Source: Rhodovulum adriaticum (GTDB lineage Bacteria > Pseudomonadota > Alphaproteobacteria > Rhodobacterales > Rhodobacteraceae). Taken from it: a stretch of DNA of 64,000 nucleotides. The notes under the pieces are model-generated. The model searched no databases. It was not told the origin of the DNA and was given only the letters and a program-made list of their open reading frames with translations. Positions 33,032 through 64,000 of this stretch are shown here, in pieces. Numbering within the stretch: position 1 is the stretch's first letter; each line of letters opens with the position of its first letter. Position numbers and translations under genes: made by a program. The stretch covers positions 62,001-126,000 of the forward strand of contig NZ_SLXL01000003.1 in NCBI RefSeq assembly GCF_004345735.1. Direction: 5' to 3'.

Positions 33032-33817
33032 ATGCCCGAAGGATTACGCAGTGCGCTGACACTGGAACGGCCCGGCGCGCGTATGGGCGCCGACCGGGTC
33101 GCGCTGCTGGCCGCGGTCGGGCGCACCGGCTCGATTTCCGCCGCCGCCCGCGAGGTGGGCCTGTCCTACAAGGCCGCCTGGGACGGTGTGCAGGCAATGA
33201 ACAACCTGTTTTCCGGTCCTCTGGTCACAGCCGCGCCGGGCGGGCGCGCGGGCGGCGGCGCCACGCTGACCCCGGCGGGCGAAAAGGTGATCACCGCCTT
33301 CACCGCCATGCAAGAGGGGCTGGAGCGCGTTGTCGCCGCGCTGGACGCCCAGATCGACCTAGACCCGACCGACATGCTCTGGAGCCTGATGATGAAAACC
33401 TCGGCCCGCAACACCTATCGCTGCACCGTCACCCAGATCACCCAGGGCACGGTCAGCGCCGAGGTGGACATGGACCTGGGCGGGGGACAACAGATCACCG
33501 CCGTCATCACCGGCCGCAGTGCCGCGGACATGGGCCTGGCACCGGGGACCGAGGTCTTTGCCATGGTCAAGTCGAGCTTTGTCATCCTAGCCAAGGGCCA
33601 GGCCGAGGGCATGCTGTCCGTCCGCAACCGCCTGACCGGCACCGTCACGGCCCGCACCGACGGCCCCGTCACCAGCGAAATCGTTCTGGATCTGGGCGGC
33701 GGCAAGACGCTGGCCGCGACCATCACCCACGAAAGCGCGAACAACCTGGAGCTGCGGCCCGGCGACACGGCAACGGCCCTGATAAAGGCCAGCCATGTGA
33801 TCCTGGCCCTACCCTAG
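33032..33817 (+). CDS. modE: Molybdate-responsive regulator ModE (MopA/MopB type)
   Basis: DNA-binding sensor of molybdate. The N-terminal winged helix contains GARMGADRVALLAAVGRTGSISAAAREVG (only the first part shown is needed: GARMGADRVALLAA), close to Rhodobacter MopA/MopB. Two tandem MOP domains follow (about residues 125-190 and 198-261), each with TSARN or SVRNRLTG starts and a VKSSFVILA or IKASHVILALP end. 261 residues from the ATG at 33032 (GGAG upstream). A GTG at 32918 with AGAAGG would add 38 residues that lack family similarity. The stop codon lies in a CTAG shared with the convergent neighbour. Confidence 0.93.
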   Translation: MPEGLRSALTLERPGARMGADRVALLAAVGRTGSISAAAREVGLSYKAAWDGVQAMNNLFSGPLVTAAPGGRAGGGATLTPAGEKVITAFTAMQEGLERVVAALDAQIDLDPTDMLWSLMMKTSARNTYRCTVTQITQGTVSAEVDMDLGGGQQITAVITGRSAADMGLAPGTEVFAMVKSSFVILAKGQAEGMLSVRNRLTGTVTARTDGPVTSEIVLDLGGGKTLAATITHESANNLELRPGDTATALIKASHVILALP

Positions 33818-35655
33818 GTCGCGTCCGGGGTTGCATCGGCCAGGGCCAGGCAGCGTTGCCAAAGGCGCTCGGCAATCTCTTGGTCCAGCACATGCGGCAC
33901 GGGGTTGTCCTGCCCCTCCATCACGAAGAAACCGCCATTGCGCACCACCTCGGGGCCTTGAACGGCCAGATCGGCGATATGGCTGGCCACGTCCCGGGGC
34001 GAGGTCATCTGCATCACCGCCCGGTTGCGCAGGGTTTCGCGCCGCTGCCGTTCCTGCGCGCCCAGCATCTCGTTATCCTGGGACAACGGCGGCAGGCGCC
34101 AGGTTTCCGACCGTTCCGCCCGCGGCACAAGGGTTGCAACGCGAATGCCGCTGCCCTCTGTCATGCCGGACAGGACGAACCCGCACATCATCAGGGCCGC
34201 CTGCGCCCGCCCCATCGCCATAAGCGGCGCATAGACGATCCGGCTTTCCAGATCGTCGGGGTCCACGGGACAATCGGCATAGCTGTTGTTGACGACGTTC
34301 ACGACCAGCGCATCCTGCGCCGCCTGCAACGGCCCGGCCAACAGGTCAGTCAGCAAAAGCTGTCCCAGCAGATTGGCGGCAACACTGCGCTCGTGCCCCT
34401 CGGCGGTTTCTTCGCGGGTGTCGTGCAGGCGCAGCACCGTGTTGAACAGCAGGTCGATCTGGCCCGGCGTTTGGCAAAGCTGCCCGGCGATGCGGCGCAC
34501 ATCGCCCATCAGCGCGATATCGCCATGCAACAGATCCAGCTTGCCCGCCTTTTCAAAATCGCCGAACCGGGCTTGTAGCGCCGCAGCATCCTCGGGCCGG
34601 GTGACGACATGCAGATGCGCCCCCAGCCGCAACAACAGCGACACCAGTTCGCGCGTCGCCGGGGTCGCGGCCTCGGTCACGACGACATGCTTTCCGGCAA
34701 GGGGCGTTTGCCCGGCCTCGACCGCGGTCAACGCGGGTGGCAGGCTGGACCGCACCGGCGGCAACAGCCCGCCATCGCGGTCGCGGCGGATGACCTCTTG
34801 CAGGATCTCTGCGAAATTCACCCAGACCCGTTTGCGCGGGCGAAATCCCAGGACCTGGACCGCGCGCGCGGTGTTCAGGACCGGCGGCACCTCGGGATAG
34901 ACCGGCCGAACCCGGATGGTCGTATCGGTGTCATCCAGCAGCATCTTGCCCAGGCGTTGGCATTCGGCGGCGGCACTGTCCGCCCCCACGGCGACCGGCC
35001 CGGCCAGGTTGAAGGCCAGACCGGCCGCGCCGGGCCGTTCCGCAGCGGCCAGCACCATATCGGCCAGTTCGTCGACATCGACCGGATGCAACCGGCCAAG
35101 GCCCGCTTGTGGCTGGCCAGTGCGCCACATGTCCCGGATCGCGGCGCGCGCGGCGGGGCAATCCCGCGACAGCACCGGCAGGCAGCGCAAAACGGTGGCC
35201 TGCGCATCCTCGGACAGGTCGGACAGCGCACGTTCCAGCGCGATGGCCGCCCGGGCCAACGGATCGGCCGTCTGGGCGGACACGAAGGGGCCGTTTTCAT
35301 CCACCGTCGCGGATTGCAACGCGACCGGGTCATAGACGGCGGCGCTGTTGACCAGCACGATGCGCGCCACGCCCGCCTTGTCGGCGGCCGCGATCAGCCC
35401 CGCGATATCGGCCGCAGCCTGCTCCGGCTCTTCCGGGGGCGTCGCGAAATCGGGGATGACCACCAGCGACACGCGCGCCAGCCGCCGCCCGAACCGCCCC
35501 GGCGTCTTGGGCCAGGGGCCTGTGCGCACGCCCTCTGGCGCGCGGTCAGCCTCTTCGGGCGACGCCAGGCCGGTGACCTCATACCCCGCTGCAAGCAGGC
35601 GCTCCGCTACCCGTTTGCCCAAGGGGCCGCAAACATCCGATATCAGTGCGCGCAT
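33814..35655 (-). CDS. Tandem Rossmann-fold (SDR-like) protein with degenerate active sites
   Basis: 613-residue fusion of two short-chain-dehydrogenase-like domains. Domain 1 (about 1-285) is of the epimerase type, but the glycine motif reads SDVCGPLGKRV instead of TGxxGxxG. Domain 2 (about 318-613) is of the classical type; its glycine motif is TEAATPATR and the usual NNAG is FNTVL. No YxxxK is evident in domain 1, so catalysis in the usual sense is doubtful. Last gene of the large minus-strand unit, 12 bases after another Rossmann protein. Possible roles are binding an acyl or nucleotide ligand or a structural partner function; this is inference. Confidence 0.75.
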   Translation of the reverse strand: MRALISDVCGPLGKRVAERLLAAGYEVTGLASPEEADRAPEGVRTGPWPKTPGRFGRRLARVSLVVIPDFATPPEEPEQAAADIAGLIAAADKAGVARIVLVNSAAVYDPVALQSATVDENGPFVSAQTADPLARAAIALERALSDLSEDAQATVLRCLPVLSRDCPAARAAIRDMWRTGQPQAGLGRLHPVDVDELADMVLAAAERPGAAGLAFNLAGPVAVGADSAAAECQRLGKMLLDDTDTTIRVRPVYPEVPPVLNTARAVQVLGFRPRKRVWVNFAEILQEVIRRDRDGGLLPPVRSSLPPALTAVEAGQTPLAGKHVVVTEAATPATRELVSLLLRLGAHLHVVTRPEDAAALQARFGDFEKAGKLDLLHGDIALMGDVRRIAGQLCQTPGQIDLLFNTVLRLHDTREETAEGHERSVAANLLGQLLLTDLLAGPLQAAQDALVVNVVNNSYADCPVDPDDLESRIVYAPLMAMGRAQAALMMCGFVLSGMTEGSGIRVATLVPRAERSETWRLPPLSQDNEMLGAQERQRRETLRNRAVMQMTSPRDVASHIADLAVQGPEVVRNGGFFVMEGQDNPVPHVLDQEIAERLWQRCLALADATPDAT

Positions 35656-35667
35656 GATCTTCGGCCC

Positions 35668-36633
35668 CTAGTCTTCCAGCATGTAGGCCGGCAGGCGGAT
35701 ACTCTCGGACGAGGCGAAGTCCAGCCGGCCCAGCACCTCCTCGATACAGTCGCGCACGGGAATCTCGGCCCGCCAGCCAAGCGCCTTCAGCTTGCGCGGT
35801 TCACGCTTCACCAGTCCGATATTGTTGCGCGAGGCCAGCTCGGTCACCGGGTTATCCGTTCGCCCGACATTGAGGATATCCCAGACCATCGCCTGGATAT
35901 CGTACAGCGTGATCGGCTCTTCGCCCGCGACCAGAAAGCACTGATTGCGCGCGCGGTCATCCTCGGCCACCAGCAGCGCGGCGCGGGCCAGATCCTTGCC
36001 GTGGGTCCATTGCATGACATCCCACAATCGGCGCTGCATCTCGATCTGGGCAGGCTGGTTGCGCAGAACAGTGCTCACCATGGTTTCGATCGCGGGGCAT
36101 TTGCGCCCGGCGATGACCGTGGGCCGCAGGATCGCATAGTCCAGCTTGCCTGTGGCGCCCGCATCCATCAGGGCATCCTCGGCGGCGATCAGGGATTCCG
36201 ATTCCGCGACCTGGGTGGGGTTGCCATGGGCGTGGCGGGGATCGTCGTCCAACAACGGCCACATCGCGGGCGAGCGGTGCAGACCGTAGATGTTGTTGGA
36301 CGTGACCATGACCATCCGCCGGGCGGACCCGGCGCAGGCCGCGATCAGGTTGCGGGTGCCCGTGACGTTGACCGCGTCCAGCGTATCCGCCCAAAGCGTC
36401 GGCGTCGGAGAGACCAGCGCGGTATGAAAAACCAGGTCCACACCGCGCGCGGCCTCTGCCAACGAGACAGGATCCAGCACATCGCCCGGCACCATCTCGA
36501 TCCGGTCGCGAAACCGCACCCGATGCATCGAATCCGCCAGCGCAAGAACCCGGACATCGTGGTCCGTGGTCATCAGGGTTTCGAGAATGTATTGACCTGC
36601 CGTGCTTGTCGGCCCTGTCAGGAGCACCTTCAA
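35668..36633 (-). CDS. NAD-dependent epimerase/dehydratase-like protein lacking YxxxK
   Basis: 321-residue extended SDR. The N-terminal LLTGPTSTAGQYILETL is a variant nucleotide motif. The expected catalytic tyrosine/lysine pair after the TSNNIYG strand is missing: the sequence reads NPTQVAESESL where YxxxK would be. The C-terminal substrate region (ILRPTVIAGR, MQWTHGKDLARA) retains family features. It sits 12 bases before the tandem Rossmann gene and 49 bases after the TPR gene. It is probably active in an unusual way or serves as a binding protein. Confidence 0.78.
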   Translation of the reverse strand: MKVLLTGPTSTAGQYILETLMTTDHDVRVLALADSMHRVRFRDRIEMVPGDVLDPVSLAEAARGVDLVFHTALVSPTPTLWADTLDAVNVTGTRNLIAACAGSARRMVMVTSNNIYGLHRSPAMWPLLDDDPRHAHGNPTQVAESESLIAAEDALMDAGATGKLDYAILRPTVIAGRKCPAIETMVSTVLRNQPAQIEMQRRLWDVMQWTHGKDLARAALLVAEDDRARNQCFLVAGEEPITLYDIQAMVWDILNVGRTDNPVTELASRNNIGLVKREPRKLKALGWRAEIPVRDCIEEVLGRLDFASSESIRLPAYMLED

Positions 36634-36682: not shown

Positions 36683-37906
36683 CTAGTCCCTGTCACCCAT
36701 CCTGAACAACGAGGACATCATGTCCTTCTGGCTTTGATCCAGCGCATCGGTGTAAAGCGCGAACAGTTCCGTGTCCGACAGCTTGCGCGCCGACCGCGCC
36801 TCGTCGATCTTGCGGATATAGGTCTCGCCTTTCGGGGCAGAATGCAACGCCGCACGATAGGATTCTTCGGCTGCGGTGATATTTCCCTCTCGGGCAAAGG
36901 CGTCGCCATACAGGCGCTGGATCGCGACGGCCATGTTCCCGCGGCGGGGCAATTGTGCCAGGATCTCGCGTGCCTCGGACTGCTTGTTCTGCGGGATCAG
37001 GGCCTGCACCAGCAAAAGCTGGGCAAAGACCCGCGGCCGCCCGCGGAACCAGTCGGCCATACGGCGGCGGAATTCGGCCTGGCGGGGCGATTGTGCCTGG
37101 CCCTGGCCCAGTTGGGACGCTTGCTCGCCACCGGCGGCAGCCGCGCGACGGGGCAGTGTCACCGCCCGGCGCAACAGTCCCTCGGCCTCTTGGAAATTGC
37201 CGGACCGGATCAGCATGTTGCCAAGCGCGGACAGCAACCCGGCATCCTCGGGATGCGCCTCTGCCGTGCGCCGCAACAGGGTCAGCGCCTCATCCGCCTT
37301 ACCCATGTCATGCAGCGCGTTGCCCAGCTGGATCACGGTCGGGATATCGTCCGGGAAGATCGAAAGCACATGTTCCAGATGCGCCTGCGCGTCCTCGTAG
37401 CGATCCTGATCGACACAAAGCGCGGCCAGTCGCTGGCGCAGACGGCGGGATTGCGGATCGGCCTCGATCGCGCGTTCAAGAACCGTGATCGCCTCTTCGG
37501 GTTTGTCATTACGCAAATGCAGCCGGCTGAGGCCGGTCAGCGCACGGACAGAGTTCGGATTGGCGGCCAGCGCCTTGTGAAAGTTGACCTCGGCATATTC
37601 GGGGTTGTCGCCGCGCATCCCAACCTGGGCGGCCAACAGCGCCGGAACCTCGTTCTCGGGGTCCAGATCCATCGCCTTTTCGAACTGGCGCGCGGCCTCT
37701 TCCAGCCGTCGCTCGCGCAGCAGCGAAAAACCAAGCGCGATCACCGGGCGCGCATTGTCCGGGTCGGCCTCGATCTGCTTTTGCAGTTCGGCCCGCGCCT
37801 CTTCTACGCGGCCTTCGGAAAACAGACTGCGGATATAGCCCATCGACTGGGTATCGGTGTCGTCGAATTCCCGAAAACTCGGGGTCCATTCATTGGTATC
37901 AGACAT
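36683..37906 (-). CDS. Tetratricopeptide-repeat protein
   Basis: 407-residue soluble protein made mostly of TPR helices. Repeats of the form EA-x2-x-x-A-x-x-x-x-P (for example EEARAELQKQIEADPDNARP, EEAITVLERAIEADPQ, DEALTLLRRTAEAHPEDAG) start about residue 30 and recur every 34 residues, six to eight times. A Gln/Ala-rich spacer lies near 255-275. No signal peptide. It probably scaffolds partners within the cluster; similar repeat proteins often assist multi-enzyme assemblies, but no specific partner can be named. Confidence 0.8.
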   Translation of the reverse strand: MSDTNEWTPSFREFDDTDTQSMGYIRSLFSEGRVEEARAELQKQIEADPDNARPVIALGFSLLRERRLEEAARQFEKAMDLDPENEVPALLAAQVGMRGDNPEYAEVNFHKALAANPNSVRALTGLSRLHLRNDKPEEAITVLERAIEADPQSRRLRQRLAALCVDQDRYEDAQAHLEHVLSIFPDDIPTVIQLGNALHDMGKADEALTLLRRTAEAHPEDAGLLSALGNMLIRSGNFQEAEGLLRRAVTLPRRAAAAGGEQASQLGQGQAQSPRQAEFRRRMADWFRGRPRVFAQLLLVQALIPQNKQSEAREILAQLPRRGNMAVAIQRLYGDAFAREGNITAAEESYRAALHSAPKGETYIRKIDEARSARKLSDTELFALYTDALDQSQKDMMSSLFRMGDRD

Positions 37907-37957: not shown

Positions 37958-40465
37958 CTAAATCGCTCCGCTCCGTTCCTCGGTTTTTCGGGTGTTTCCC
38001 GGCGACGGGATTGGTCCCTCTGCCACAGGCAGATGCCCGGCTGCCTGCTCGGCCTCGATGATGCGCCGCAACCCCTCTGCAAAGGGCACCCGCGGGGAAA
38101 ACCCCATCTTGGTGCGCGCGCGGCTCATGTCGTATTGCTGAACGTAACGCCGCCAGATACGGGTGCGGTCCGGGCTCAGATCACCCGGGCCCGGCTGTCC
38201 GATGGCGATGCGGGTCATCTTGCCCAGATCGCGATAGGTAATCAGGTCCGGCCCGGCCACGTTGAAGGTCACATTGCGCGCCTCGGGCTGGAAGATGGCG
38301 CGTAGCAACGCCTCGACCGCGTCGTCGATATGCACGAACTGGCGCTGCTGATCGCCCCCGGGCCCCGAGCCGAAGCCCGGATCGGGCGCGTTGTCGCGCA
38401 CCATGGGCGCGACCAGGGGATCGCCCACCCCATAGACCAGCGCCAGGCGCAGGATCGCGTGATCGAAACCGTGCTGCTTGCCGTAATGCTGTACCAGATT
38501 CTCGCCGGCGATCTTGCTCATCCCGTATTCGGCAAGGTCGTTGTCGGCATCCATGCGCAGGGCGTGGGCCTCGTGGATGGGCCATTCGGTTTCGGTGAAC
38601 TGGTGCTGGTAGACCGCGACCGAACTGGTGAAAACGAAATGCTTCAGCGTCCCGTCCGCGATGCAGGCGCGCAGCAGGTCGTGGGTGCCGTCGACATTGG
38701 TCCGGCGCAGATCCTGCCGGGTGCAGGCCCCCGCCAGACGCGCGGCCATGTGCACCACGGTTTCCGCCCCGGCGACAAGGTCCGAAAGCGCGGTCTTGTC
38801 CTCCAGCGTGCCCTCGATCACCTCAAGGTTTTTGTGCGCGGGGATGTCGCCCGCCGTGCCCGGCAGGGTCAGAACCCGCAACCGATAGCCCGCCTTCAGC
38901 AGATGCGGCAGCGCGTGGCTGCCGAAATAGCCGGTCAGACCCGTCGCCGCGATCAGCGGCGTCTTCTTGCGCCCGGTTGCGGCGGGAACCTTATAGGGAA
39001 CGGTGTCGCCGTTGCCGATGAATACCTCGGTCCCGCCATCGGGGTTTTCGATGTATTCCCAACGCGAGGCCAGGCGCGCGGGCGATTTGCCCCCGAACAC
39101 GTTCGCCGTGCCCACCGCCAGCCCCTTGGGCGTGGAAACCATCGTCCGTCCGCCGTAATTGAACGGGTTTCCCATGCCGTTCAGCGTGACCGGCATCCAG
39201 TTGACGCCGTCGCGGGTGCGCCACATCTCGAACCCGCCGCCGACACTGGCCAGTTGCTCATAGCTGATCCCATTCAGCAGGCGTTTCGACGTGGGCGAGG
39301 GCCGGTGCGCGTATTGCAGGAACACCGACCAGTCAAAGGTGGTGGTGTAAAGCCAACCGTCATGCACGCACATCCGCCACGTATAGCCGGCAAAGATGTT
39401 GTCGAAGCCGGGGCCAAGGCCGGACAGCGGGTATTTCACCCCGTCGGGGGTTTCCCGCGGGCTGCCCACCAGCAGATCCCAACTGCCATCGGGCCAGATG
39501 CGGATGACCTCGCCCGAGGCGGGGCCGACCAGGTTGGTGCGGTCATAGCCGCCGTTCTGGATCGACGATCCGACATAAAGCGCGCCATTGAATTCGACCA
39601 TCGCCATGGCGATTTCGGAAACGGGGCCGCGATAGGCGCCCTTGTCGATCACCTTGCGCCATTGCAGCGGGCCGTCGCCGCAGGGCGGCGTGGTCCAGAT
39701 CTGATAGCCCTCGAAATTGTTGAAGGTGCCCGCGTATAGCTGGCCGTTGGCCACGGTCATCATGAAGATGCCGTTGTTGGTCGGATCGCCAAAGCCCAGG
39801 TCGCAGGCGACCTCCCAATTGCCGGGGCGCGGGTCCTTGGACCGCATCAGCACGCCCGAGCGGTTGGAGTTGAACTGGATCCCCTCGCCCGCCGGCGGCG
39901 CGTAAAGCCAACCGTCAAAGGAGACAAGCTCGCGAAACGTGGAAATCCGGTCGTTGCCGATCCCCGGCTCGCAGGCCGGTTCGAAGTTCAACCCATCCTC
40001 GGACCGCAGCACATGGGCCGCGCAACCGCGCAGCACCGTTGACATGGTGGACACGTAAAGCGTGGGTTTCTCGTCCGAGGCGCCCTGAAACACCGTCATG
40101 CCGCGATAGCCCAGGTCGCGCGGGGCCGGTTCGCCCTTTTTGCCGGGGATCATGGGCGAGCGAAAGGCCAGTTCCCAGTCGTCGGTTTCCGGGGTCCAGC
40201 GCCAGATCTGGCCCTGCATGTCCAGATCCTCGACCCGGGGCGGCACCTCGACCGGCCAGGGGTCCAGTGCGGGCGGGTCGATCGGCGGAAACAGCTTGAG
40301 CAGCTTGAACGAATTGCGGGTCATCCCGCAGTAAAGCCGCCCCTCGTACCACGCCATGCCATGCACATAGGCGTTGGCCGGGTCACCGATCCCGTTCTTG
40401 GCGATCTGCCGAAACTGGCCCGCTGTCAGGCCCTGTCCGTCCAAGTCTTTGGCGTTACCGCTCAT
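37958..40465 (-). CDS. Beta-propeller/NAD-dependent epimerase fusion
   Basis: 835-residue two-part protein. Residues 1 to about 495 show repeated blade-like motifs with the pattern (D/N)G-x-LY-x-G (GRLYCGMT, GWLYAPPA, GQLYAGTF, GALYVGSS, GWLYTTTF) and Trp-rich strands, suggesting a six- or seven-bladed propeller. Residues from about 498 form an extended SDR with ATGLTGYFGSHAL, TSSVAVY and the catalytic YGMSK (tyrosine near 647), so this half looks enzymatically intact. I do not know another example of this fusion. The ATG follows AGGGCGC. In the middle of the polyketide transcription unit. Confidence 0.8.
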   Translation of the reverse strand: MSGNAKDLDGQGLTAGQFRQIAKNGIGDPANAYVHGMAWYEGRLYCGMTRNSFKLLKLFPPIDPPALDPWPVEVPPRVEDLDMQGQIWRWTPETDDWELAFRSPMIPGKKGEPAPRDLGYRGMTVFQGASDEKPTLYVSTMSTVLRGCAAHVLRSEDGLNFEPACEPGIGNDRISTFRELVSFDGWLYAPPAGEGIQFNSNRSGVLMRSKDPRPGNWEVACDLGFGDPTNNGIFMMTVANGQLYAGTFNNFEGYQIWTTPPCGDGPLQWRKVIDKGAYRGPVSEIAMAMVEFNGALYVGSSIQNGGYDRTNLVGPASGEVIRIWPDGSWDLLVGSPRETPDGVKYPLSGLGPGFDNIFAGYTWRMCVHDGWLYTTTFDWSVFLQYAHRPSPTSKRLLNGISYEQLASVGGGFEMWRTRDGVNWMPVTLNGMGNPFNYGGRTMVSTPKGLAVGTANVFGGKSPARLASRWEYIENPDGGTEVFIGNGDTVPYKVPAATGRKKTPLIAATGLTGYFGSHALPHLLKAGYRLRVLTLPGTAGDIPAHKNLEVIEGTLEDKTALSDLVAGAETVVHMAARLAGACTRQDLRRTNVDGTHDLLRACIADGTLKHFVFTSSVAVYQHQFTETEWPIHEAHALRMDADNDLAEYGMSKIAGENLVQHYGKQHGFDHAILRLALVYGVGDPLVAPMVRDNAPDPGFGSGPGGDQQRQFVHIDDAVEALLRAIFQPEARNVTFNVAGPDLITYRDLGKMTRIAIGQPGPGDLSPDRTRIWRRYVQQYDMSRARTKMGFSPRVPFAEGLRRIIEAEQAAGHLPVAEGPIPSPGNTRKTEERSGAI

Positions 40466-42983: not shown

Positions 42984-43271
42984 TCAGACGCAATCGGGTG
43001 CGCCGACGCGCAGGACAGAGGTCACGATATCGTCGACCGTCATGTCCTTCAGCAGGCGACCTTCTTCCCTAAGCGCTTTGAAGACCCTGTCGCCCAACCC
43101 GAAATGCTGTTGCAGCTCGGACACCAGATAGACCAGCGAAATAGACTCCAGCCCCAGGTCAAGCAGCTTGCTGTCGGGGGTCAGATCAGTCGTTTCCAGT
43201 TCAAGGTCGTCGCCAAGATCCTCAAAGACTTCGGTCAGGACGGCCAGCACATTTTCTCTTGAAATCATCAT
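42984..43271 (-). CDS. Acyl carrier protein
   Basis: 95-residue carrier protein with phosphopantetheine attachment site LGLESISL (S43). Acidic N-terminal helix (EVFEDLGDDLELE) and helical remainder are typical. Start ATG at 43271 overlaps the upstream synthase stop as ATGA, giving translational coupling. A free ACP beside a synthase that contains only one internal ACP suggests it shuttles the finished or a second acyl chain. Confidence 0.93.
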   Translation of the reverse strand: MMISRENVLAVLTEVFEDLGDDLELETTDLTPDSKLLDLGLESISLVYLVSELQQHFGLGDRVFKALREEGRLLKDMTVDDIVTSVLRVGAPDCV

Positions 43272-55419: not shown

Positions 55420-57951
55420 GTGGACATCGCGCAGCGGTTCACGGCACACTCGGCCACGCAAGTACGGGGCAGCGGCGTGTTCAAACCCATCTTTATCCTT
55501 GGGCCGGGGCGGTCCTACACCACGATCATTTCGGCGATGCTGGGCCAGCACCCGCAGCTTTTCGGCTTTCCCGAGTTGAACCTCAGCGTTGCGGACACGG
55601 TCGGCCAGTGGGTCGCGGAAACGACGCACCCGCACCGGGCGTGGATGCGCTTTGGCCTGGTCCGCACCGTGGCGCAGTTTCTGACCGGCAACCAGGGCGA
55701 GGCAGCCGTCGCCCAGGCTGAACAATGGCTGGCCACCCGGCCCGGGATGGCGATGACCGAGCTTTACGGGATGCTGGCGCAGGAAATCGCCCCGCGCCGC
55801 ATGGTCGAGAAAAGCCCGCACATGATTTCCAGCGCGGCGCACCTGGCAAGGATCGACCGGATGGCACCGGATGCGATCTATTTGCATGTCACACGCCACC
55901 CGTTCAGCGCCGGTGTCTCGATGAACAAGACCGAGTGGTTCCGCCTGGCGCTGATGCTGGGCGACCGGCAGGCCTATGACGACCGGCAGGTGCCGCCGGT
56001 GTTCGACGCACAGTTCTATTGGCTGCGCAGCCATCGGCGCATCCTGGATTTTCTGGCGACGATCCCACCCGAGCGGCAGTTGCGGGTCCGTGGCGAAGAT
56101 GTCCTGAGCGATCCGGGCCAGGCCCTGGCCGATATCTGCGCCCGCATCGGTCTGGACAGCGGCGCGCAAGCGGTCGAGCGGATGCTGCACCCCGAGGAGT
56201 CGCCCTTCGCCTGCCTTGGCCCGGCCAACGCGCCCCACGGCAACGACCCCGACTTTCTGGAAAATCCCAGGGTCCGGGCCTATACGCCGCCGCGCGCGCC
56301 GCTTTCGGGGCCGGTGCCCTGGCGCAATGACGGGGCCACTCTGTGCCCCGAGGTGATCGCGCTGGCGCAGGAATTCGGTTACCGCGACGAACAACCGGGC
56401 CCGAAACCGGCCCGCCCGTCCGATCCGCCGACCTGGCCGGATGCGGCGCTGACCTCGCTTGTTACCGATGGGCCCGGCGTGCCGATGGCCCATGCCAACC
56501 TGCTGGACAATTCCTATTGCGAGTTGCCGCCGATGCAGGCCCTGACCCGCGTCGATTACCGCCCGGCGCCCGCTATCGGCTGGATCAATTTCGGCAGCTA
56601 CACCGCGGGCGATCTTGCGGTCTCGGTCTTTGACAGCCGCGATGAACCCGCGCTGGTCGCAACCGATCCGCGCAGCGGGGAAACCCTGTGGCAGACCGCG
56701 CCCGATGTTCTGCCCCCCAGCGGGCAAAGCCGCCTGCGTTGGGTCAGCGGCCTGTTGATGGCGCGGCTGGGCTTTGCCGACGGCAGCCAGCGGCGCTGCA
56801 TCTTTGCGGGCAACGCCGCCGAGATCGTCTGCCTGGATCACACGGGCCGCGTGCTGTGGCGCAACCGCAGCGGCGACGCCGGGCCGCCGCGCTGCATCCG
56901 CTTTACCGCCGACCGCTGCCTGATCTTTGCCACCACACCCACCGATCCGGCGACGCCGGGCCAACTGGTCAAGATGGACCCGGTCACGGGCGAGATCGTG
57001 GACCGCCTGCGCCTGACCGCAGAGGCCGAGGTCGAGGGGCGCCGCATCCGCGGGGGGTACCATGTCTATCAGTCGATCATCGTGGCCGGCGACCACGCCT
57101 ATGTGGAGGGCATGTTCGTACCGGAAACCCCGCAGCCGCCCCAGGCGGACCGTTTTCTGCCAACAACGGTGATGCGGTTCCGCGTTTCGGGCACGCAGGA
57201 CCGCCGTATCGAGCGCGCCGAAGGCGATGTCGCGGTGGCTGCGCCGGTTCTGCAACGAACCATCGGACGGGTGGGCACCCGCCGGCAGGGCGGGTCGCCT
57301 TCTGCGATCAGGGATGCACAGGGGCATCCGGTCATCGTGGCCAACGGGTTCGCCGACACCCCGCCCGGCGCCCCGGATGAATACGTGCTTCAGGCGCTGC
57401 GCGACACGGGCGACCGGCTGGAGCCCCTGTGGCAGTTCCGCATCCGCGGCGAGGAAGACCCCAAGATCACCGCCGCCCCGGCCATCGATCCGCTGACCGA
57501 AACCTATGTCGCGGCCACGCGCACGACGCTCTACCTGTTCGGCAACATCACTGCTCTGACAGGCAACCCCATGCCCGACCTCGCGGTGCCCTCGCTTGAT
57601 CTGCTGGCCGCCCCCTTCCGCCAAGAGGCCACCGCCGCCGAGGTATCCAGCCCCATCATCCTGTCGCGGTCCAAGGGCGAACGGGGGTTCATCGCCTATC
57701 TTGGTCTTGCGGCCTGGGCGCCGGGCGTGGCGCAGAACTATTCCCTGCTGAGCGCGCTGCGTATCGACGTGGCGCCCTATCGCGTGACGCCACTCTGGAC
57801 CGCCTCGACCGCGCAATCGCCCGAGGGCATTCCGATCCCGACCGCGCGCTCGTTCGCGCAGCCCGCGCTGTTCACCCATGACACAGACGGCACGCCCCGC
57901 ACGGGTGTCATCATGAGCAACATGACCGCAGGCGTCGCGATCATGCGTTAG
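55420..57951 (+). CDS. Sulfotransferase fused to PQQ-like beta-propeller
   Basis: 843-residue two-domain protein. The N-terminal sulfotransferase (about 1-330) has the PAPS-binding loop FILGPGRSYTT (about 25-35) and the 3'-phosphate motif TRHPFSAGVSM with Arg and Ser retained, so it should be active. From about 370 to the end there are PQQ-dehydrogenase-like blades (DPRSGETLWQT, DHTGRVLWRN, DPVTGEIVDRL), without Trp-docking calcium or quinone ligands that I can identify. The GTG at 55420 is the start of the open frame; no signal peptide. The 3' end overlaps the convergent hydrolase by 11 bases. The fusion is unusual. Confidence 0.83.
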   Translation: MDIAQRFTAHSATQVRGSGVFKPIFILGPGRSYTTIISAMLGQHPQLFGFPELNLSVADTVGQWVAETTHPHRAWMRFGLVRTVAQFLTGNQGEAAVAQAEQWLATRPGMAMTELYGMLAQEIAPRRMVEKSPHMISSAAHLARIDRMAPDAIYLHVTRHPFSAGVSMNKTEWFRLALMLGDRQAYDDRQVPPVFDAQFYWLRSHRRILDFLATIPPERQLRVRGEDVLSDPGQALADICARIGLDSGAQAVERMLHPEESPFACLGPANAPHGNDPDFLENPRVRAYTPPRAPLSGPVPWRNDGATLCPEVIALAQEFGYRDEQPGPKPARPSDPPTWPDAALTSLVTDGPGVPMAHANLLDNSYCELPPMQALTRVDYRPAPAIGWINFGSYTAGDLAVSVFDSRDEPALVATDPRSGETLWQTAPDVLPPSGQSRLRWVSGLLMARLGFADGSQRRCIFAGNAAEIVCLDHTGRVLWRNRSGDAGPPRCIRFTADRCLIFATTPTDPATPGQLVKMDPVTGEIVDRLRLTAEAEVEGRRIRGGYHVYQSIIVAGDHAYVEGMFVPETPQPPQADRFLPTTVMRFRVSGTQDRRIERAEGDVAVAAPVLQRTIGRVGTRRQGGSPSAIRDAQGHPVIVANGFADTPPGAPDEYVLQALRDTGDRLEPLWQFRIRGEEDPKITAAPAIDPLTETYVAATRTTLYLFGNITALTGNPMPDLAVPSLDLLAAPFRQEATAAEVSSPIILSRSKGERGFIAYLGLAAWAPGVAQNYSLLSALRIDVAPYRVTPLWTASTAQSPEGIPIPTARSFAQPALFTHDTDGTPRTGVIMSNMTAGVAIMR

Positions 57952-58684
57952 CCTCCATCGCCAGGTGCATCCGGGCCAGGTCGGCGGGTTCGGTGCGCAG
58001 GTGGGCCTCCAGCACGCCGCGGTCGCGCAACCGCGCGCCCAGCTCGGTATGGGTCTTGCTCTTGCTGGGAACCGGAAAGATCTGCGGGAAATCCTGGATC
58101 GCGTGGGCGTTGTTGCGGTCCATTTTTAGGTTCTCCGAATGGTAGGCAATCATCGGGCCGACCGTACTGTCGCGGCTTTCGAACAGGGCGCGCAGATCCA
58201 GATAGCGCGGAACTTCCTCGCGCTTGGCGTAATACTCGTAAACCGCGTCGAACTGGCCGGGCCAGCGGGGACCGCACCGCCGCTTGCGGGCGATGTCATA
58301 GTCGCAACAGGTCCGCGCATTCGCCGTCAGGACATCATCCGCCCCGACAAGAAAGCCGTGCAACAGGGCGGCATACCCGCCGGTACAGATCCCCAGGCAT
58401 GTCACCCGCTCGACATCCAGCCGGCGGCGCAGATAGGCCAGAAACTCGACATTCTCTTCGATCGAATCCGTCACCCCGGCAAAGCCGGAATGGTAGGAAT
58501 CGCCGCCGGAATCCCGCGCCAGCAGGACATGGCCCTTGTGGTCCAACATGGCGTTTGAAAATTCGAACTTGCCCGAGGTCGCGGAAACCACCGTGCTGAA
58601 CGCCACGACCAGATGCCTGCCATTCCCGCGCCGCAACAGCAGATCGGGGCCGATTTCTTCTTCCAACATCTTCAACGCAATCAT
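57941..58684 (-). CDS. Alpha/beta hydrolase-like protein with cysteine nucleophile
   Basis: 247-residue protein with VAFSTVVS, RDSGGDSYHSG and the nucleophile elbow LGICTGGYAALLHG, where C100 stands in the serine position, as in dienelactone hydrolases. The C-terminal half is variable and contains several Tyr/Arg-rich helices. No signal peptide. It is convergent with the sulfotransferase fusion (11-base overlap) and 65 bases upstream of the SDR gene on its own strand. Substrate unknown; an acyl or lactone ester of the cluster product would fit. Confidence 0.65.
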   Translation of the reverse strand: MIALKMLEEEIGPDLLLRRGNGRHLVVAFSTVVSATSGKFEFSNAMLDHKGHVLLARDSGGDSYHSGFAGVTDSIEENVEFLAYLRRRLDVERVTCLGICTGGYAALLHGFLVGADDVLTANARTCCDYDIARKRRCGPRWPGQFDAVYEYYAKREEVPRYLDLRALFESRDSTVGPMIAYHSENLKMDRNNAHAIQDFPQIFPVPSKSKTHTELGARLRDRGVLEAHLRTEPADLARMHLAMEANA

Positions 58685-58749: not shown

Positions 58750-59427
58750 TTACCAGGGCAACGGGCTGCCCCGAAAATCCAGGAAGGCACCGCATTGCGC
58801 CGGGGTCAGCCGATCCACCGTCACACGTATCCCGGCCGCGCTTTGCTCGGGCAAGATCGGGCCGTCGGGTCCGCCCATTTCGGTACGAACCCAGCCCGGA
58901 TGCATCGCGATCCCGATCACGCCGTTCTGCGCCCACACGTCCGAGAACTGGCGAATCCGGTCATTCAGCGCCGCCTTGGATTCCCCATACAGGCGCAGGC
59001 GGCGGCCATTGCCTCGAATCCCGTCGGCGCTGGAAATGAAGACCAGCCGACCCATAGGCGCGTTCTTGAGGTTCTCGAAGATAGCCTCGGCCACGCGGAT
59101 CGGGGCCTCGGTATTGATCGCGAACACTTCTTCGGCCGGGATCGGCGGGCCCGAACCGAAGGCCCCCCCGACCCGGTCATAGGTGCCCGCTGCGTGAATC
59201 GCCACATCCAGCGGGGTATCGCCCAGGTCGCGCCGCAGCTGTTCGATCTGATCGGCGTTGCGCACGTCCAGCCGGTGCATGATCAGATTGTCCCCGCAAT
59301 CGGCCAGGGCCTCAGGGCGGGTGCCAGAGCGCGTGGTCGCATGCACCCGCCAGCCGAGCATGGCGTATTGGCGCGCCAGTTCCGCACCGATGCCGCGGCT
59401 GGCGCCGACGATCAGAACCGTGGACAT
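58750..59427 (-). CDS. Short-chain dehydrogenase/reductase (classical SDR)
   Basis: 225-residue NAD(P)-dependent oxidoreductase. Nucleotide motif LIVGASRGIGAELAR (8-22), HAAGTYD, catalytic S132-S133, Y147 and K151 (YGESK) are all intact. ATG at 59427 has GGAGAG upstream; an upstream frame to 59445 is unlikely. Follows the esterase gene by 18 bases on the same strand. Likely oxidoreductase in the cluster pathway, substrate unknown. Confidence 0.88.
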   Translation of the reverse strand: MSTVLIVGASRGIGAELARQYAMLGWRVHATTRSGTRPEALADCGDNLIMHRLDVRNADQIEQLRRDLGDTPLDVAIHAAGTYDRVGGAFGSGPPIPAEEVFAINTEAPIRVAEAIFENLKNAPMGRLVFISSADGIRGNGRRLRLYGESKAALNDRIRQFSDVWAQNGVIGIAMHPGWVRTEMGGPDGPILPEQSAAGIRVTVDRLTPAQCGAFLDFRGSPLPW

Positions 59428-59445
59428 TCGGTCTCTCCGCTCCAC

Positions 59446-60393
59446 TCAGCGATGCGCATCGAAGAAGGCCATGACCTCGGCCGAGGCGTTCAGGTCGGGC
59501 CGGAACGGCCCAAGCAGACCCATGCCCTTGGGCGCCCCCGGCCAGGCATGCCCCATCCGCGGAACCACGCACAGCATCGAAACCGCAGCGCCGGGGCAGT
59601 TGGTATAGGCGCTGCAGGTCGTGTCCAGGGTGCGCGGCTTGGAAATGGCTTTGGTCGCCCCGGTGCCACAGCCATTCCGGCGGGCAATCGTGCGCACCAT
59701 CTTGGCCGCCGGTTCCATGTAGCCGATATCCTTGGCGAACAGGCCTTCGCCATAGCCCCCTTCGACCGGCGAGCCGCGGTCGCGGTCGCCGTGGATGTGC
59801 ATCACCGGCACCCGCCCCGACCGGCAACGGTCCATGTTCCGCGTCGCGCCCACGCCAACGACCGCCGCGACGGTCTGCGGCTGGTTGCACAGGATATGGT
59901 AGACCAACTGCGACCCGCCCGAGAAACCGGTCAGATAGGCCTTGCTCTCGATCGGGATGAGGCTGGCAACGTCCTTGCGCATCGCGTTGAAGAAGCCCAG
60001 ATCATCGATCCCCTCGCGATGGGCGCGCCCGCAGCAATCGCCTGCGTTCCAGGTCGGGTAATAGCCATCGGGATAGACCACCACGTAATTGCCCCCGCTG
60101 CGCGTCGCATGCAGCTTGGTGCGCGTGCGCATCCACCGCCCCTGTGCCACCGCCGGGTGAAAGGCAAAGATCACCGGCCAGCTTGCGCGTGCCTTGGGGT
60201 TGTTGGGCAGGATCACGGTATAGGTCCGCTCGATCCCGCCGACCCTGATCTTGCGATCGACCCGCTGACCGGCCTCGGCCGCGGGTGCGGAAACCAGTGA
60301 AACGGTCACCAGCAGGCCGGCAAGGCCCGCCCAGGACCGCCGCGCAAGTGCGGTCATCCGAGTTCTGAGGCACGATAGGCGTGACAGCTTCAT
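59446..60393 (-). CDS. Secreted PHB-depolymerase/LpqC-family esterase
   Basis: 315-residue exported serine esterase. A signal peptide precedes the mature chain (AGLAGLLVTVSLVSAPAAEA). The catalytic serine is S158 in TGFSGGSQLVYH, with YPDGYYPTWNAGDCCG (disulfide-forming cysteine pair) and the histidine in MGHAWPGAP, matching LpqC/feruloyl esterase-like polyester hydrolases. It precedes the SDR by 18 bases. A periplasmic or extracellular esterase next to a lipid-like synthase could modify the exported product. Confidence 0.85.
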   Translation of the reverse strand: MKLSRLSCLRTRMTALARRSWAGLAGLLVTVSLVSAPAAEAGQRVDRKIRVGGIERTYTVILPNNPKARASWPVIFAFHPAVAQGRWMRTRTKLHATRSGGNYVVVYPDGYYPTWNAGDCCGRAHREGIDDLGFFNAMRKDVASLIPIESKAYLTGFSGGSQLVYHILCNQPQTVAAVVGVGATRNMDRCRSGRVPVMHIHGDRDRGSPVEGGYGEGLFAKDIGYMEPAAKMVRTIARRNGCGTGATKAISKPRTLDTTCSAYTNCPGAAVSMLCVVPRMGHAWPGAPKGMGLLGPFRPDLNASAEVMAFFDAHR

Positions 60394-60641
60394 GACGAGA
60401 TCTCCCTAGTCTGTACCGCAAGCCAGCGGCGGTGTTGACGCGACTCGGTCCCGCTCACGATAACGCGCCCTTTCCGCGTGCCAAAGCGCCGATCCCCGAT
60501 TGACCTCTGCACGCGGCAAATCGCTGATTTGTCCGGCAAAGCGCGCCGCCCGCCGACGCTGCGCAACGTTGCACCGATGGTTCGAATATGGAAAGAAGAT
60601 AAGGATCGGGTCCGGACCGACCTGCCATATGGGCTTTAACG

Positions 60642-63569
60642 ATGACAGCGCTCAATCACGCTTGGCCCGATAGCGGCGACATTCCCGGCCTGGGCCTGGG
60701 GCCCGGTGTTTCGGTGTCGCGGCGCGGCGACGCGGATGGTTCCGTCTTCGTCAAGAATGCCGGTACGGGCCGGGTCTTGCGGCTTGGCGCCGAGGAGGAT
60801 TTCCTGCTGACCGGCGGGATCGAGGGCGGCAGCCTGCAAGCCTTGTGCGACAGCTTTGCCGAGCGTTTTGGCAAGAAGGCCGCGCCCCAGACCGTGATCA
60901 ACTTTCTCGATCAGATGGTCGAACGGGGCATCCTGGTGCCAGTCGAGGACGCACAGGTTGTCGAAAGCAGCCCTAGCCGCCCGGCCAGCACTGGCCCGAG
61001 CGGCCCCAAGCTGGTCGCTGGCGAGGTCGTAAACGGCGACGCGCCACCGGAGGACGAGGATCCGTTCGGCCCCGAGCTCGACGAGATGGAACAGGAAATC
61101 TTCGGCGAGGGGCGCCGCCCCCAAAAGCCGGGACGCCAGACACCCAAACCCGCCGAAGATGCCAGCAACCCGGATGCCGCAGCGACCTCGCAGCCGCCCA
61201 AGACAGCCCGTTTCCGCCCCAAACGGACGCCCAGGCCCGCCAGCGACCGGGCACCGGCGGGCACCGGCACAGGTGATGCGGCGCAAAATCGGGGCACGCC
61301 CGACCGGGACGCGCGCGCCGAGAGCGCCGCCGGGGCGCGCGATCCCGGGCCAACGTCGGCCCCGCGTGCCAAACCCGCCCCCAAGCCCAAGGATACCCAG
61401 TCGCAAGAGGGCGGCGTTCAGCCCGCGCTGGCCCGGAAAAAGATCAGTTTTCGCGACAAGCTGGACGCGCCAGGGGAAAAACCCGGTGGCATGCTGTCGC
61501 TGTTCGACCCGACCGGGCTTTTGCGCTTTCTGTCCGGGACATTCGGCTGGCTGCGCTATTTCCAGTGGCTGATCTACCCCTTGGTGATCTTCGCGATCAT
61601 GATCACCTTGAACCGCCTGTCGCAATATGGGCTCAGCTTCGCGTTCAGCTTTGGCCAGGTAACCCTGATCGCGACGCTGTTCGTGTCGATGATCACGGTG
61701 AACCTGTTCGCTGTCCTTGTGCCGGCGGTCGTCGCCTATCGCCACGGGGCCGAGATCCGGCATTTCGGCTTCATCTTTGCGCTTTTCGTCATTCCGCGCT
61801 TTTCGATGGACACGACCGGGACGATGCTGCTGGACCGGGCGGGCAAGCTGGCCTTTCACGCCGCCGCCCTGAAGACGCGGCTCACGATCTTCGCCCTCAC
61901 CACCTTCCTATGGGCGGTGACGCGGCAAGAAGGCACCTTCTTGTCCGATCTGGCCTTCATCGTGTCGCAGATCGCCTTGCTGAGCTTCCTTATCACCGCT
62001 TTCCCGCTGCTGCCCGGCAACGGTTACACCTGGATCGCGACCTATGTGGAACAGCCTTTCCTGCGGCAGCGGGCGTTCAACTATCTTTTCGGCACCTCGA
62101 AAAAGATTGTCGAGCGCCTGCCGCCGCCAACCCCGCGCGAGAAGATGGCCTTTGCGCTGTATGCCCTGGGATCGGTCCTGACGATCGGGGTGCTGGCCAG
62201 CCTTTTCGCGCTGCACTTTACCTCGGCCCTTGAGGGCCGGTTCGGCGGTACCGGGCTGCTTATGTTCCTGGGTCTGCTGGTCGCCCTTGTCCTGTGGATG
62301 TCGGTCATGAAGCGGGCCTATCGCAAGGCCGGGGCACAGACGATCCGGCGTGCGGTGGTCAAGGGAATGCGCGACGGCAACACCAACCTGCCGGTCCCCC
62401 TGGGCGGCAAGGCCAAGACCGGCACCACCCTGCCCGTGCCCGCCGGACGCGGCGGCGCCCTGGTCAAGCAGGGCCAGCGCCTGCCCGGACCGCCCCGGCG
62501 GGTGCCGCTGGCCGGTGTCTATACCACCCCGGCCAAGACGCGCTGGCGGTGGGTGCGCCGCGGCGTGCTGGTACTGGGGCTGGCGGCGCTGATCTACGGG
62601 GCCTTTCAGCCCTACACCTACGAAACCGGCGGGGATTTCGTGATCCTGCCCGATCAGCGCAGCAAGGTCAGCCCCCGGGTCGAGGGTGAGCTGGTCGAAA
62701 TCTATGTCGACGAGGGCGATATCGTCGAGGCCGGGCAGCCGCTTGCCCGCCTGTCCGATCTGGCGCCGCGCCACGCCGTCGCCTCGATCGCGGCGGAACT
62801 GGAAAAGGCGCGCGCTGTCCTGTCCCGGCTGGAGGCCGGCGCCAGTTCCGAGGAGATCCAGGTCGCCCGCGAACAGGTCGAACTGGCCAAGGCCGACCTG
62901 CCCTACAAGGAGGGCCAGATGGCCCGCGCCGAGGCGCTGTTCGAACGCGGCACCATTTCCCAGGCCGAACTGGACAGCTATCGCACGGCCTATGCGGTGG
63001 CGCTGCAGAAACTGCGCACCGCCGAGGCCAACCTGGCCGAGGTTCAGGCCCCGGCCAGCGATGCCGATATCCGCATCGCACGCGCCGACGTGAACCGGCT
63101 GGAGGCCGAGCTAGCCTATCAGCAGAACCGCCTGGACGAGGTCGTGATCCGCGCCCCGGTGACCGGTCAGATCGTGACCGAGAATGTCCGCCTTCTGCAT
63201 GGCAAGCACATGTCCGAGGGCGAGCTTTTCGTCGAGATCGAGGACCATAGGGTGGCCCGTGCCGAGGTCCGCGTGCCCGAGGCCGATATCGGCCTGGTCA
63301 CGGCCGGTGATGCGGTGCGCCTGAAGGCCTGGGCCAGCGCCTCCAGCGAATTGGTCGGCGAGGTTGTGGGCATCGCCCCCCAGGCCGAAGAGGCCGAATT
63401 CGGCAATACCGTGCGGGTCAAGACGCAGCTGGACAACAGCAGCGGCTTTTTCCGGCCGGGCATGACCGGCTATGCCAAGATCGACGGCGCCGAGATGAAA
63501 AGCTGGCAGGCCTTCTCTCGCCTGGTCGATCGGTTTTTCCGGATCGAGGTCTGGGGCTGGATCCCATAA
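60642..63569 (+). CDS. PqqD-like/M50-like membrane/HlyD fusion protein
   Basis: 975-residue inner-membrane protein. Residues 20-105 look like a PqqD/RiPP-recognition winged helix (GRVLRLGAEEDFLL, FLDQMVERGILVP). Residues 110-270 are Pro/Ala/Arg-rich and probably disordered. A set of membrane segments (about 294-540) resembles M50 peptidase-like transport proteins, but the HExxH zinc motif is absent; only HGAEIRH (from residue 368) is found. Another membrane segment (about 636-655) leads to an HlyD-type adaptor with lipoyl half-motifs and coiled coil (about 670-975). An ATG at 60642 without a Shine-Dalgarno was taken. Probable role in export of the cluster product. Confidence 0.72.
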   Translation: MTALNHAWPDSGDIPGLGLGPGVSVSRRGDADGSVFVKNAGTGRVLRLGAEEDFLLTGGIEGGSLQALCDSFAERFGKKAAPQTVINFLDQMVERGILVPVEDAQVVESSPSRPASTGPSGPKLVAGEVVNGDAPPEDEDPFGPELDEMEQEIFGEGRRPQKPGRQTPKPAEDASNPDAAATSQPPKTARFRPKRTPRPASDRAPAGTGTGDAAQNRGTPDRDARAESAAGARDPGPTSAPRAKPAPKPKDTQSQEGGVQPALARKKISFRDKLDAPGEKPGGMLSLFDPTGLLRFLSGTFGWLRYFQWLIYPLVIFAIMITLNRLSQYGLSFAFSFGQVTLIATLFVSMITVNLFAVLVPAVVAYRHGAEIRHFGFIFALFVIPRFSMDTTGTMLLDRAGKLAFHAAALKTRLTIFALTTFLWAVTRQEGTFLSDLAFIVSQIALLSFLITAFPLLPGNGYTWIATYVEQPFLRQRAFNYLFGTSKKIVERLPPPTPREKMAFALYALGSVLTIGVLASLFALHFTSALEGRFGGTGLLMFLGLLVALVLWMSVMKRAYRKAGAQTIRRAVVKGMRDGNTNLPVPLGGKAKTGTTLPVPAGRGGALVKQGQRLPGPPRRVPLAGVYTTPAKTRWRWVRRGVLVLGLAALIYGAFQPYTYETGGDFVILPDQRSKVSPRVEGELVEIYVDEGDIVEAGQPLARLSDLAPRHAVASIAAELEKARAVLSRLEAGASSEEIQVAREQVELAKADLPYKEGQMARAEALFERGTISQAELDSYRTAYAVALQKLRTAEANLAEVQAPASDADIRIARADVNRLEAELAYQQNRLDEVVIRAPVTGQIVTENVRLLHGKHMSEGELFVEIEDHRVARAEVRVPEADIGLVTAGDAVRLKAWASASSELVGEVVGIAPQAEEAEFGNTVRVKTQLDNSSGFFRPGMTGYAKIDGAEMKSWQAFSRLVDRFFRIEVWGWIP

Positions 63570-63601
63570 CGGTTTGAAACCAGCCATCGGCCGCGTCTTA
63601 C

Positions 63602-63625
63602 CCTGCCCGCAGCCGTTCGGGCGGG
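63602..63625. terminator. Hairpin between convergent genes
   Basis: 8-bp stem CCTGCCCG/CGGGCGGG (one T-G pair) with an 8-base loop, between the HlyD fusion and the convergent sulfotransferase. No T-tract on either strand, so its termination strength is uncertain. Confidence 0.4.
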
Positions 63626-63629
63626 ATGC

Positions 63630-64000
63630 CTAGGCCCGGTTGCGGTAAAGCGTGCTTTCCACCGCGCCGGCCATCGCCCCCCGATCCAGACCGCCGCCCA
63701 GGAATTCGTCCAGAGCCTGGGCCGCCTGCGCGGGGTCGGCGACCACCTGCCCGTAGTCCAGGCGCAGCAATGCAATGTTGCGCTGCGCCTCGGCCCAGCG
63801 AAGAAAGCGGATCACCTCTTCTTGAAACAGCCGGTGCAAGACGTCCCGGCCGATCGCATCGGGATCCAGCCCGTCGCGGCGCATCATCACCTCTTGCGAG
63901 GCGAGAACCTCGTCCAGGTCGCGCTGCATGAACACCAGACGGTACTCTACGTCCGGGGGCAATTCATAGGCCAGCTTGTAGATGACCTTGACCGCCTGGC
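63630..64000 (-). CDS. Sulfotransferase-family protein (partial; N-terminus beyond right edge)
   Basis: The visible C-terminal 120 residues include KVIYKLAYELPPDVEYRLV followed by FMQRDLDEVLASQEVMM, where Arg and Ser of the PAPS 3'-phosphate site are present, then a helical end. This matches the 'sulfotransferase family' in which RDLDEVLASQ is characteristic. The P-loop must lie outside the window. It is the second sulfotransferase of the region, converging with the HlyD fusion, and supports sulfation as a theme of the cluster. Confidence 0.78.
   Translation of the reverse strand, partial: QAVKVIYKLAYELPPDVEYRLVFMQRDLDEVLASQEVMMRRDGLDPDAIGRDVLHRLFQEEVIRFLRWAEAQRNIALLRLDYGQVVADPAQAAQALDEFLGGGLDRGAMAGAVESTLYRNRA

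Follow-up and report, generated by a model that had tools for sequence, protein, structure and literature searches.

At the end of a 64,000-nucleotide stretch of the Rhodovulum adriaticum genome (the window hereafter; contig C3, positions 62001-126000, of a 3.35 Mb assembly in 36 contigs, here G000) lies a set of fifteen genes, running from modE to the window end (33814-63998). It is built around two Pfa-like synthases that, judged by their motifs, belong to the known class of 'secondary lipid' synthases, and it adds to them a phosphodiesterase, several hydrolases, sulfotransferases and a putative exporter. A sequence-only reading of the same DNA had named most of these elements, though not the TPR protein, and domain scans of the window's proteins place them where it did:

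33814-35655, minus strand: SDR2, a tandem Rossmann protein (epimerase-like plus adh_short) of 613 residues (domain scan).
35668-36573, minus strand: EPI, an epimerase/3beta-HSD-like protein, OleD/HpnA-like at scores far under the cut-offs (domain scan).
36683-37906, minus strand: TPR protein, 407 residues (domain scan).
37958-40465, minus strand: PROP-EPI, all-beta and propeller-like at about residues 1-490, Rossmann epimerase at about 505-803 (domain scan and structure model).
40525-41355, minus strand: ABH, an alpha/beta hydrolase and candidate releasing thioesterase.
41364-42971, minus strand: PDE, an NPP-type phosphodiesterase (PF01663), cytosolic-looking (domain scan and alignment).
42984-43271, minus strand: free acyl carrier protein (ACP), 95 residues, motif GLES.
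43268-48037, minus strand: PfaC, a PfaC-like synthase, KS-AT-DH-PPTase (domain scan).
48034-55320, minus strand: PfaDA, a synthase with ER (NMO-like)-KS-AT-ACP-KR, 2428 residues (domains and NCBIfam).
55420-57951, plus strand: ST-PROP, a CurM/OLS-type sulfotransferase with a PQQ_2/BamB-like propeller, 843 residues.
57941-58684, minus strand: HYD, alpha/beta-hydrolase-like, 247 residues, with a G-x-C-x-G elbow (structure model).
58750-59445, minus strand: SDR, a short-chain dehydrogenase of 231 residues.
59446-60393, minus strand: EST, an esterase of the polyhydroxyalkanoate (PHA) depolymerase kind with a signal-peptide-like N-terminus, 315 residues.
60642-63569, plus strand: HlyD fusion, PqqD-like/M50-like/HlyD-RND adaptor, 975 residues.
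63630-63998, minus strand: ST2, the C-terminal portion of another sulfotransferase-like gene, of a different kind, that starts beyond the window.

Nine genes, PfaDA, PfaC, ACP, PDE, ABH, PROP-EPI, TPR, EPI and SDR2, form a single minus-strand run. Past PfaDA follow ST-PROP (plus), HYD, SDR and EST (minus), the HlyD fusion (plus) and ST2 (minus); ST-PROP starts 99 bp upstream of PfaDA, in divergent orientation. The tight overlaps noted earlier are real: PfaDA and PfaC share 4 nt, PfaC and ACP share 4 nt given an ACP start at the first ATG, and the gaps between ACP, PDE and ABH measure 12 and 8 nt. The start of EPI is uncertain, its open reading frame reaching 36633 with TTG.

PfaDA passes the NCBIfam PfaA model TIGR02813 with 1027.1 bits against a cut-off of 1010.1. 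Two NMO stretches lie at its N-terminus, followed by ketosynthase motifs ACGSS, HGTGT and KSMIGH, the acyltransferase motif GHSFGE, one ACP motif and a KR. PfaC carries ACASS (KS), GHSSGE (AT), a PS-DH and the PPTase motif PHVSISH, with VSISH at residue 1449. The domain sets first proposed, KS-AT-ACP-KR and KS-AT-DH, are both present and need extending: the former also has an ER, the latter a fused PPTase.

Like the secondary lipid synthases of Shulse and Allen (PMC3098273), the set combines KS, ACP and KR with a PfaA-like first gene scoring over the TIGR02813 cut-off. In that scheme the PPTase motif hShxH marks Types M-T (Shulse and Allen 2011, PMC3098273), and VSISH of PfaC fits it. Tandem ACPs, typical for Pfa-like synthases and not required by the authors, are absent from PfaDA: one ACP motif is seen here and in four distant relatives, two to four in five close ones. 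A polyunsaturated membrane lipid of the eicosapentaenoic or docosahexaenoic acid (EPA/DHA) kind, made by Types A/B, is out, because the chain-length factor and the second DH are missing and the second gene reads KS-AT-DH-PPTase; the domain scan of PfaC found no chain-length-factor domain. Type O has been reported in marine Alphaproteobacteria and in Gloeobacter, with product unknown, and the accessible part of that paper makes no mention of sulfotransferase, phosphodiesterase or propeller partners (PMC3098273). In a metagenome-assembled genome (MAG) of the Gloeobacterales (L125), ACP, PDE, ABH and a propeller are present.

The distribution of the cluster is patchy. Across samples of 16 genomes from the genus and 394 from the family, a long PfaC match occurs in two of the former, R. 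adriaticum itself and G001 (43%), and, at a threshold of E<=1e-150, in 14 of the latter, as expected of an accessory cluster for a Pfa-like lipid. Four members of four other genera (G274, G322, G127 and G050) keep nearly the whole set: homologues of PfaDA, PfaC, ACP, PDE, ABH, PROP-EPI, TPR, EPI, SDR2, HYD, EST, the HlyD fusion and ST2 are clustered in all of them. A fused-type sulfotransferase lies inside the cluster in three, the propeller-fused copy of G127 being on another contig, and a close SDR homologue occurs in two. In these four and in G372, SDR2 is 29-36% identical and TPR homologues adjoin the cluster; identities in five relatives reach about 57-64% for EPI and 73-81% for PROP-EPI. 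The more distant G001, G220, G180, G380, G328 and G363 combine the synthases with varying subsets of PDE, ABH, propeller, sulfotransferase, HlyD and TPR genes, and their sulfotransferase mostly adjoins a separate propeller gene.

Profiles for the propeller and the sulfotransferase match 14 and 15 of the family genomes, respectively. Synthase and propeller coincide in 13 of the 14 synthase genomes, synthase and fused-type sulfotransferase in 12 of 14, propeller and sulfotransferase in 13 genomes. Lack of co-occurrence of the sulfotransferase and HlyD genes with the synthases had been named as evidence against the cluster; the opposite is found, HlyD and ST2 genes standing beside the synthases in all four complete close relatives as well. 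Among the exceptions, G157 (84% complete, its contig ending within the cluster) has a synthase with neither propeller nor sulfotransferase, G231 a synthase without sulfotransferase, and G053 and G148 a sulfotransferase alone.

The core reaches well beyond the family. A scan with the PDE alignment gave 151 relatives; around the best 80, with flanks of up to 10 kb, many of them ended by contig ends, we found ABH at 73 loci, DH-PPTase at 61, a PfaC-type KS at 59, KR at 56, a propeller at 46, a sulfotransferase at 23, EST at 18 and HlyD at 16. They include loci from Gammaproteobacteria (Nevskia, Solimonas, Hydrocarboniphaga, Lamprocystis, Competibacteraceae), Cyanobacteria (Fischerella, Westiellopsis, Trichocoleus, Cyanaurora), Planctomycetota, Acidobacteria, Deltaproteobacteria and Chloroflexi; the synthase-phosphodiesterase-hydrolase core itself recurs in Gammaproteobacteria, Cyanobacteria, Planctomycetes, Acidobacteria and Chloroflexi. 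No propeller was seen in two Chloroflexi stretches, both short. Conservation in four other genera, together with the co-occurrence of synthase, propeller and sulfotransferase over 394 genomes, makes the cluster more than a chance assembly, and since the same core is retained in several phyla, often with sulfotransferases and an export protein close by, a real pathway is likely. We propose that it is a horizontally patchy, widely conserved secondary-lipid pathway. Some loci (L128, L121, L112, L123, L111) carry lineage-specific extras: a radical SAM/B12 protein, a chlorophyllase-like hydrolase, a CoA-transferase III, a methyltransferase and a hexapeptide protein. Among plasmid records, the synthase query was matched over at least 80% of its length in two Streptomyces records only, and the PDE query found archaeal and other proteins at 25-29% (best 25 of 60).

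By homology, the sulfotransferase domain of ST-PROP is of the CurM/olefin synthase (OLS) type, which acts on polyketide, acyl-ACP substrates; this assignment is new here. In a PDB sequence search with ST-PROP, only the sulfotransferases of CurM (4gbm, 7e-22) and OLS (4gox, 3e-21) fell under E 0.1. All three motifs for 3'-phosphoadenosine-5'-phosphosulfate (PAPS) are intact in ST-PROP. The cluster sulfotransferases have the stretches R-S-[FY]-[TS]-[ST], [DE]KSP, RHP and PE[LVI]NL in common, and they share PE[LVI]NL and GNDP-FL with CurM and OLS. In a tree, CurM and OLS form one branch and the cluster enzymes another (99/100 and 93/90); five further G000 sulfotransferases also entered the tree as long rows, some of them (L153, perhaps L154) apparently read in a wrong frame, and we make no use of their positions.

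Of 41 aligned cluster sulfotransferases, 24 show all three PAPS-type motifs, a count in which some genes figure by two routes (L126/G328) and four have a cut start (G322, G380, G394, G328). Losses are seen in four Nevskia MAGs, in a gammaproteobacterial MAG and in the second copy of each of G220, G180 and G380, among others, with PE-x-NL mostly kept; in these relatives at least, the sulfotransferase step has changed. A cluster may hold up to three such genes (G001; L086, L138), and in L086 (12377-20796) each of three sulfotransferase-like genes is followed by a propeller gene. The two sulfotransferases first proposed for the window both exist, the second being another matter: ST2 differs in kind from the CurM/OLS type, keeps PRSGTS at its start, continues beyond the window and falls into two reading frames (63630-63998 plus C3:125947-126201), by a true frameshift or an assembly error. 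Its homologues in G274, G322, G127 and G050 are unsplit.

Both beta-propeller fusions noticed earlier exist, PROP-EPI and ST-PROP, and BLAST finds their propellers dissimilar to each other. The PROP-EPI model (pLDDT 83.2, pTM 0.82) has an all-beta N-terminal and a Rossmann C-terminal half. All 50 matches listed in a fold search are of epimerase/SDR type and cover the Rossmann half, so that the propeller call rests on secondary structure and on weak Pfam scores: 28.4 against 27.6 for PQQ_2 in ST-PROP, 19.3 against 20.4 for Reg_prop in a relative. Two isolated propellers gave no Pfam match.

In PDE, residues D15, T54, D220, H224, D279, H280 and H437 do not vary among the 10 sequences aligned; from NPP enzymology, we take them to be metal ligands and the nucleophile. 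A structure model of modest confidence (pLDDT 68.4) shows HYD as an alpha/beta hydrolase, and two HYD paralogues lie just beyond the window. EST scores 85.7 bits for the PHA-depolymerase type, under the cut-off of 150. The C-terminus of the HlyD fusion passes TIGR01730 for HlyD/RND periplasmic adaptors (122 against 94.9); its membrane part resembles an intramembrane metalloprotease weakly (29.4 bits, cut-off 300) and has no HExxH, and the N-terminus gives a weak PqqD-like match. A 745-residue FkbH-ACP protein (228.1 against 146.65) is encoded 3 kb past the window (C3:128922-131159; L007 4923-7160), and G050 also has an FkbH protein beside its cluster; in these two genomes the product may therefore contain a glyceryl unit.

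A long-chain lipid that is sulfated and exported is the product we favour; it is the likeliest single outcome, with a probability of about 0.42. By homology, PfaDA and the KS-AT-DH-PPTase synthase would assemble a long chain, reduced in part, on carrier proteins that the PPTase would prime. The sulfotransferase of ST-PROP would use PAPS to sulfate a hydroxyl group on the chain while it is carrier-bound, and the epimerase and SDR enzymes, one of them presumably tied to the pathway by its propeller domain, would adjust other hydroxyl and keto groups. ABH, acting as a thioesterase, could then release the chain, PDE might act on a phosphodiester in the carrier or the head group, and the HlyD fusion would export the resulting amphiphile. 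Next to the observed gene content, motifs, conservation and co-occurrence, the order of steps, the substrate of PDE, the role of the propellers and the retention of the sulfate are guesses. The presence of up to three sulfotransferases per cluster and of an exporter favours a decorated amphiphile rather than a hydrocarbon.

Several points weigh against this sulfolipid. The sulfotransferases of CurM and OLS use sulfate as a leaving group, and of the earlier idea of a sulfated Pfa-like lipid only the Pfa-like lipid cluster stands firm, the closest solved sulfotransferases being ones from whose products sulfate leaves. ABH is kept where the only sulfotransferase seen lacks PAPS motifs (L087, L093, L109, L116, L137), and both G274 enzymes and that of G322 read DQSP for DKSP; given these variants and the degenerate copies, sulfation may not be general. 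G033 has a sulfotransferase-propeller-esterase set (L158 17109-19377, L159 44-559) with no synthase in the 37 kb read. The hypergeometric p values for co-occurrence (synthase/propeller 3e-22, synthase/sulfotransferase 2e-18, propeller/sulfotransferase 2e-21) are not corrected for kinship. Adenosine-5'-phosphosulfate (APS) kinase is present in the genome, as in 16 of 16 genus genomes, so we dropped PAPS supply as a discriminator.

The sulfate may decorate the lipid, or it may leave to give a terminal alkene. In the second case the final intermediate, still on its ACP, would be sulfated at a beta-hydroxyl by the sulfotransferase, and ABH, a decarboxylating thioesterase, would hydrolyse it. CO2 and sulfate would be lost and the product would be a terminal alkene with a long chain, as happens for curacin A (CurM) and with cyanobacterial OLS. 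Besides the sulfotransferase kinship, the hydrolase itself argues for this. ABH is 28% identical to an OLS thioesterase over 278 residues, and with the OLS thioesterases, taken from 8 of 12 fetched cyanobacterial loci (the other four have other C-termini), its family scores a median best of 58.9 bits (n=64), whereas 10 further alpha/beta hydrolases from G000 score no more than 51. An OLS sulfotransferase match occurs in 13 of 244 genomes. An acid stands 24 residues past the nucleophile serine (position 118) in 63 of 64 ABH sequences (57 D, 6 E) and in all eight OLS thioesterases; the usual acid site (position 232) is a serine in 62 of 64 and again in all eight. In its alignment ABH thus shares the unusual active-site layout of the OLS thioesterases, which is new here, and it may work like one. 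The layout is not exclusive: one of the 10 control hydrolases (L185) has it, seven have the usual Asp and L194 and L197 are unreadable, the controls coming from 13 loci besides ABH of which L192, L193 and L195 gave no open reading frame.

ABH also fails one family feature, GGHN, present in eight of eight OLS thioesterases and in none of the 21 ABH rows shown. Its closest solved relative is the esterase 5egn, with no CurM thioesterase among the best 60 of 291 structure matches. For the CurM thioesterase, Gehret reportedly described in 2011 a Ser-His-Glu triad together with an arginine serving the sulfate. Furthermore, sulfotransferase and thioesterase do not share a chain with an ACP here, ABH persists beside degenerate sulfotransferases, and CurM and OLS branch apart from the cluster enzymes. 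The hydrolase layout and the closest sulfotransferases favour a departing sulfate; on balance we find that outcome unlikely, though worth serious attention.

A broader and decidedly speculative version would unite the loci across phyla. The propellers would be a shared docking module that brings sulfotransferase or epimerase to the carrier-bound Pfa chain, with sulfate as a temporary leaving group; terminal alkenes of Pfa origin would then extend beyond the known OLS cyanobacteria, and the sulfotransferases that lack PAPS motifs would persist as partners that bind the chain.

It is more doubtful still that the sulfotransferases act on a head group or glycan instead of the carrier-bound chain, their polyketide-type likeness being family kinship only. 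Their separate branch (93/90), the synthase-free set of G033 and the unrelated ST2 fit such a role, but scans of the set's window genes turned up no glycosyltransferase, and PE[LVI]NL and GNDP-FL are common to CurM and OLS. Finally, a structural or surface anchor of cyst, capsule or outer membrane, akin to phenolic lipids or heterocyst glycolipids and placed in the envelope by EST and the HlyD fusion, is very improbable: several characterised secondary lipids are structural (PMC3098273) and the set has a secreted esterase and an adaptor protein, but Pfam and NCBIfam showed no hgl, ars or wcb/rkp gene in it, with no gene-by-gene search made.

modE is probably an incidental neighbour, as it had no match in the stretches from the 14 other genomes; regulation by, or linkage to, modE was therefore rejected. 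A look for an empty insertion site flanked by modE and a downstream permease matched modE in 12 of 16 genus genomes and the permease in 8 of 16; only G006 and G010 have both on a single contig within 18-29 kb, and no simple junction emerged. Elsewhere in the window, a SorX RNA (singlet oxygen resistance RNA X, RF02784) is found at 26153-26231 on the plus strand, with 47.8 bits against a gathering score of 46.6.

Few secondary lipid synthases have a known product. The conserved partners (PDE, the OLS-like hydrolase, propeller-linked polyketide-type sulfotransferases, the exporter) are testable handles on their chemistry across phyla. If the sulfate stays, they would point to exported sulfolipids, a class so far overlooked; should it depart, to a new source of long-chain terminal alkenes. 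The open literature, with subscription journals and preprints outside its scope, gave no product and no description of the gene set as a set. Pfa-like or OLS genes in cyanobacteria are treated in PMC4247773, PMC11804610 and PMC4558948, whose accessible parts do not describe it. The earlier statement that no known pathway matches thus holds for the accessory genes; for the synthases it does not, their secondary lipid class having been described (PMC3098273), as has a fused pfaDA with a PPTase-bearing second gene in other bacteria (PMC13291983).

Among known systems, the EPA/DHA synthases have KS-CLF-DH2, whereas the set here lacks the chain-length factor and has one DH. The swf cluster of sponge symbionts, for which an alkyl sulfate has been proposed, likewise places an iterative type I polyketide/fatty acid synthase beside a sulfotransferase; its SwfA is KS-AT-DH-ER-KR-ACP and its SwfB a thioester reductase-sulfotransferase fusion, layouts that do not occur here (PMC3908369). 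In CurM and OLS, sulfotransferase and thioesterase form one chain, while here they are separate genes on opposite strands; a propeller is fused to or paired with the sulfotransferase, GGHN is missing, several sulfotransferases may share a cluster, and no FAAL was found in the window set. What the two have in common is a sulfotransferase of the same subfamily with PAPS motifs and a hydrolase with its acid at +24 and a serine at the acid site; in both CurM and the cyanobacterial OLS the sulfate is a leaving group (PMC3903477, PMC6274090). For the synthases themselves the nearest parallels are the fused pfaDA and pfaBC-PPTase genes known from Aquimarina, Flavobacterium and Renibacterium (PMC13291983). 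Those of Aquimarina and Flavobacterium are tied to lines of non-ribosomal peptide and polyketide synthases, unlike here; in all three, as in R. adriaticum, the ER is fused to PfaA and the PPTase to the second synthase.

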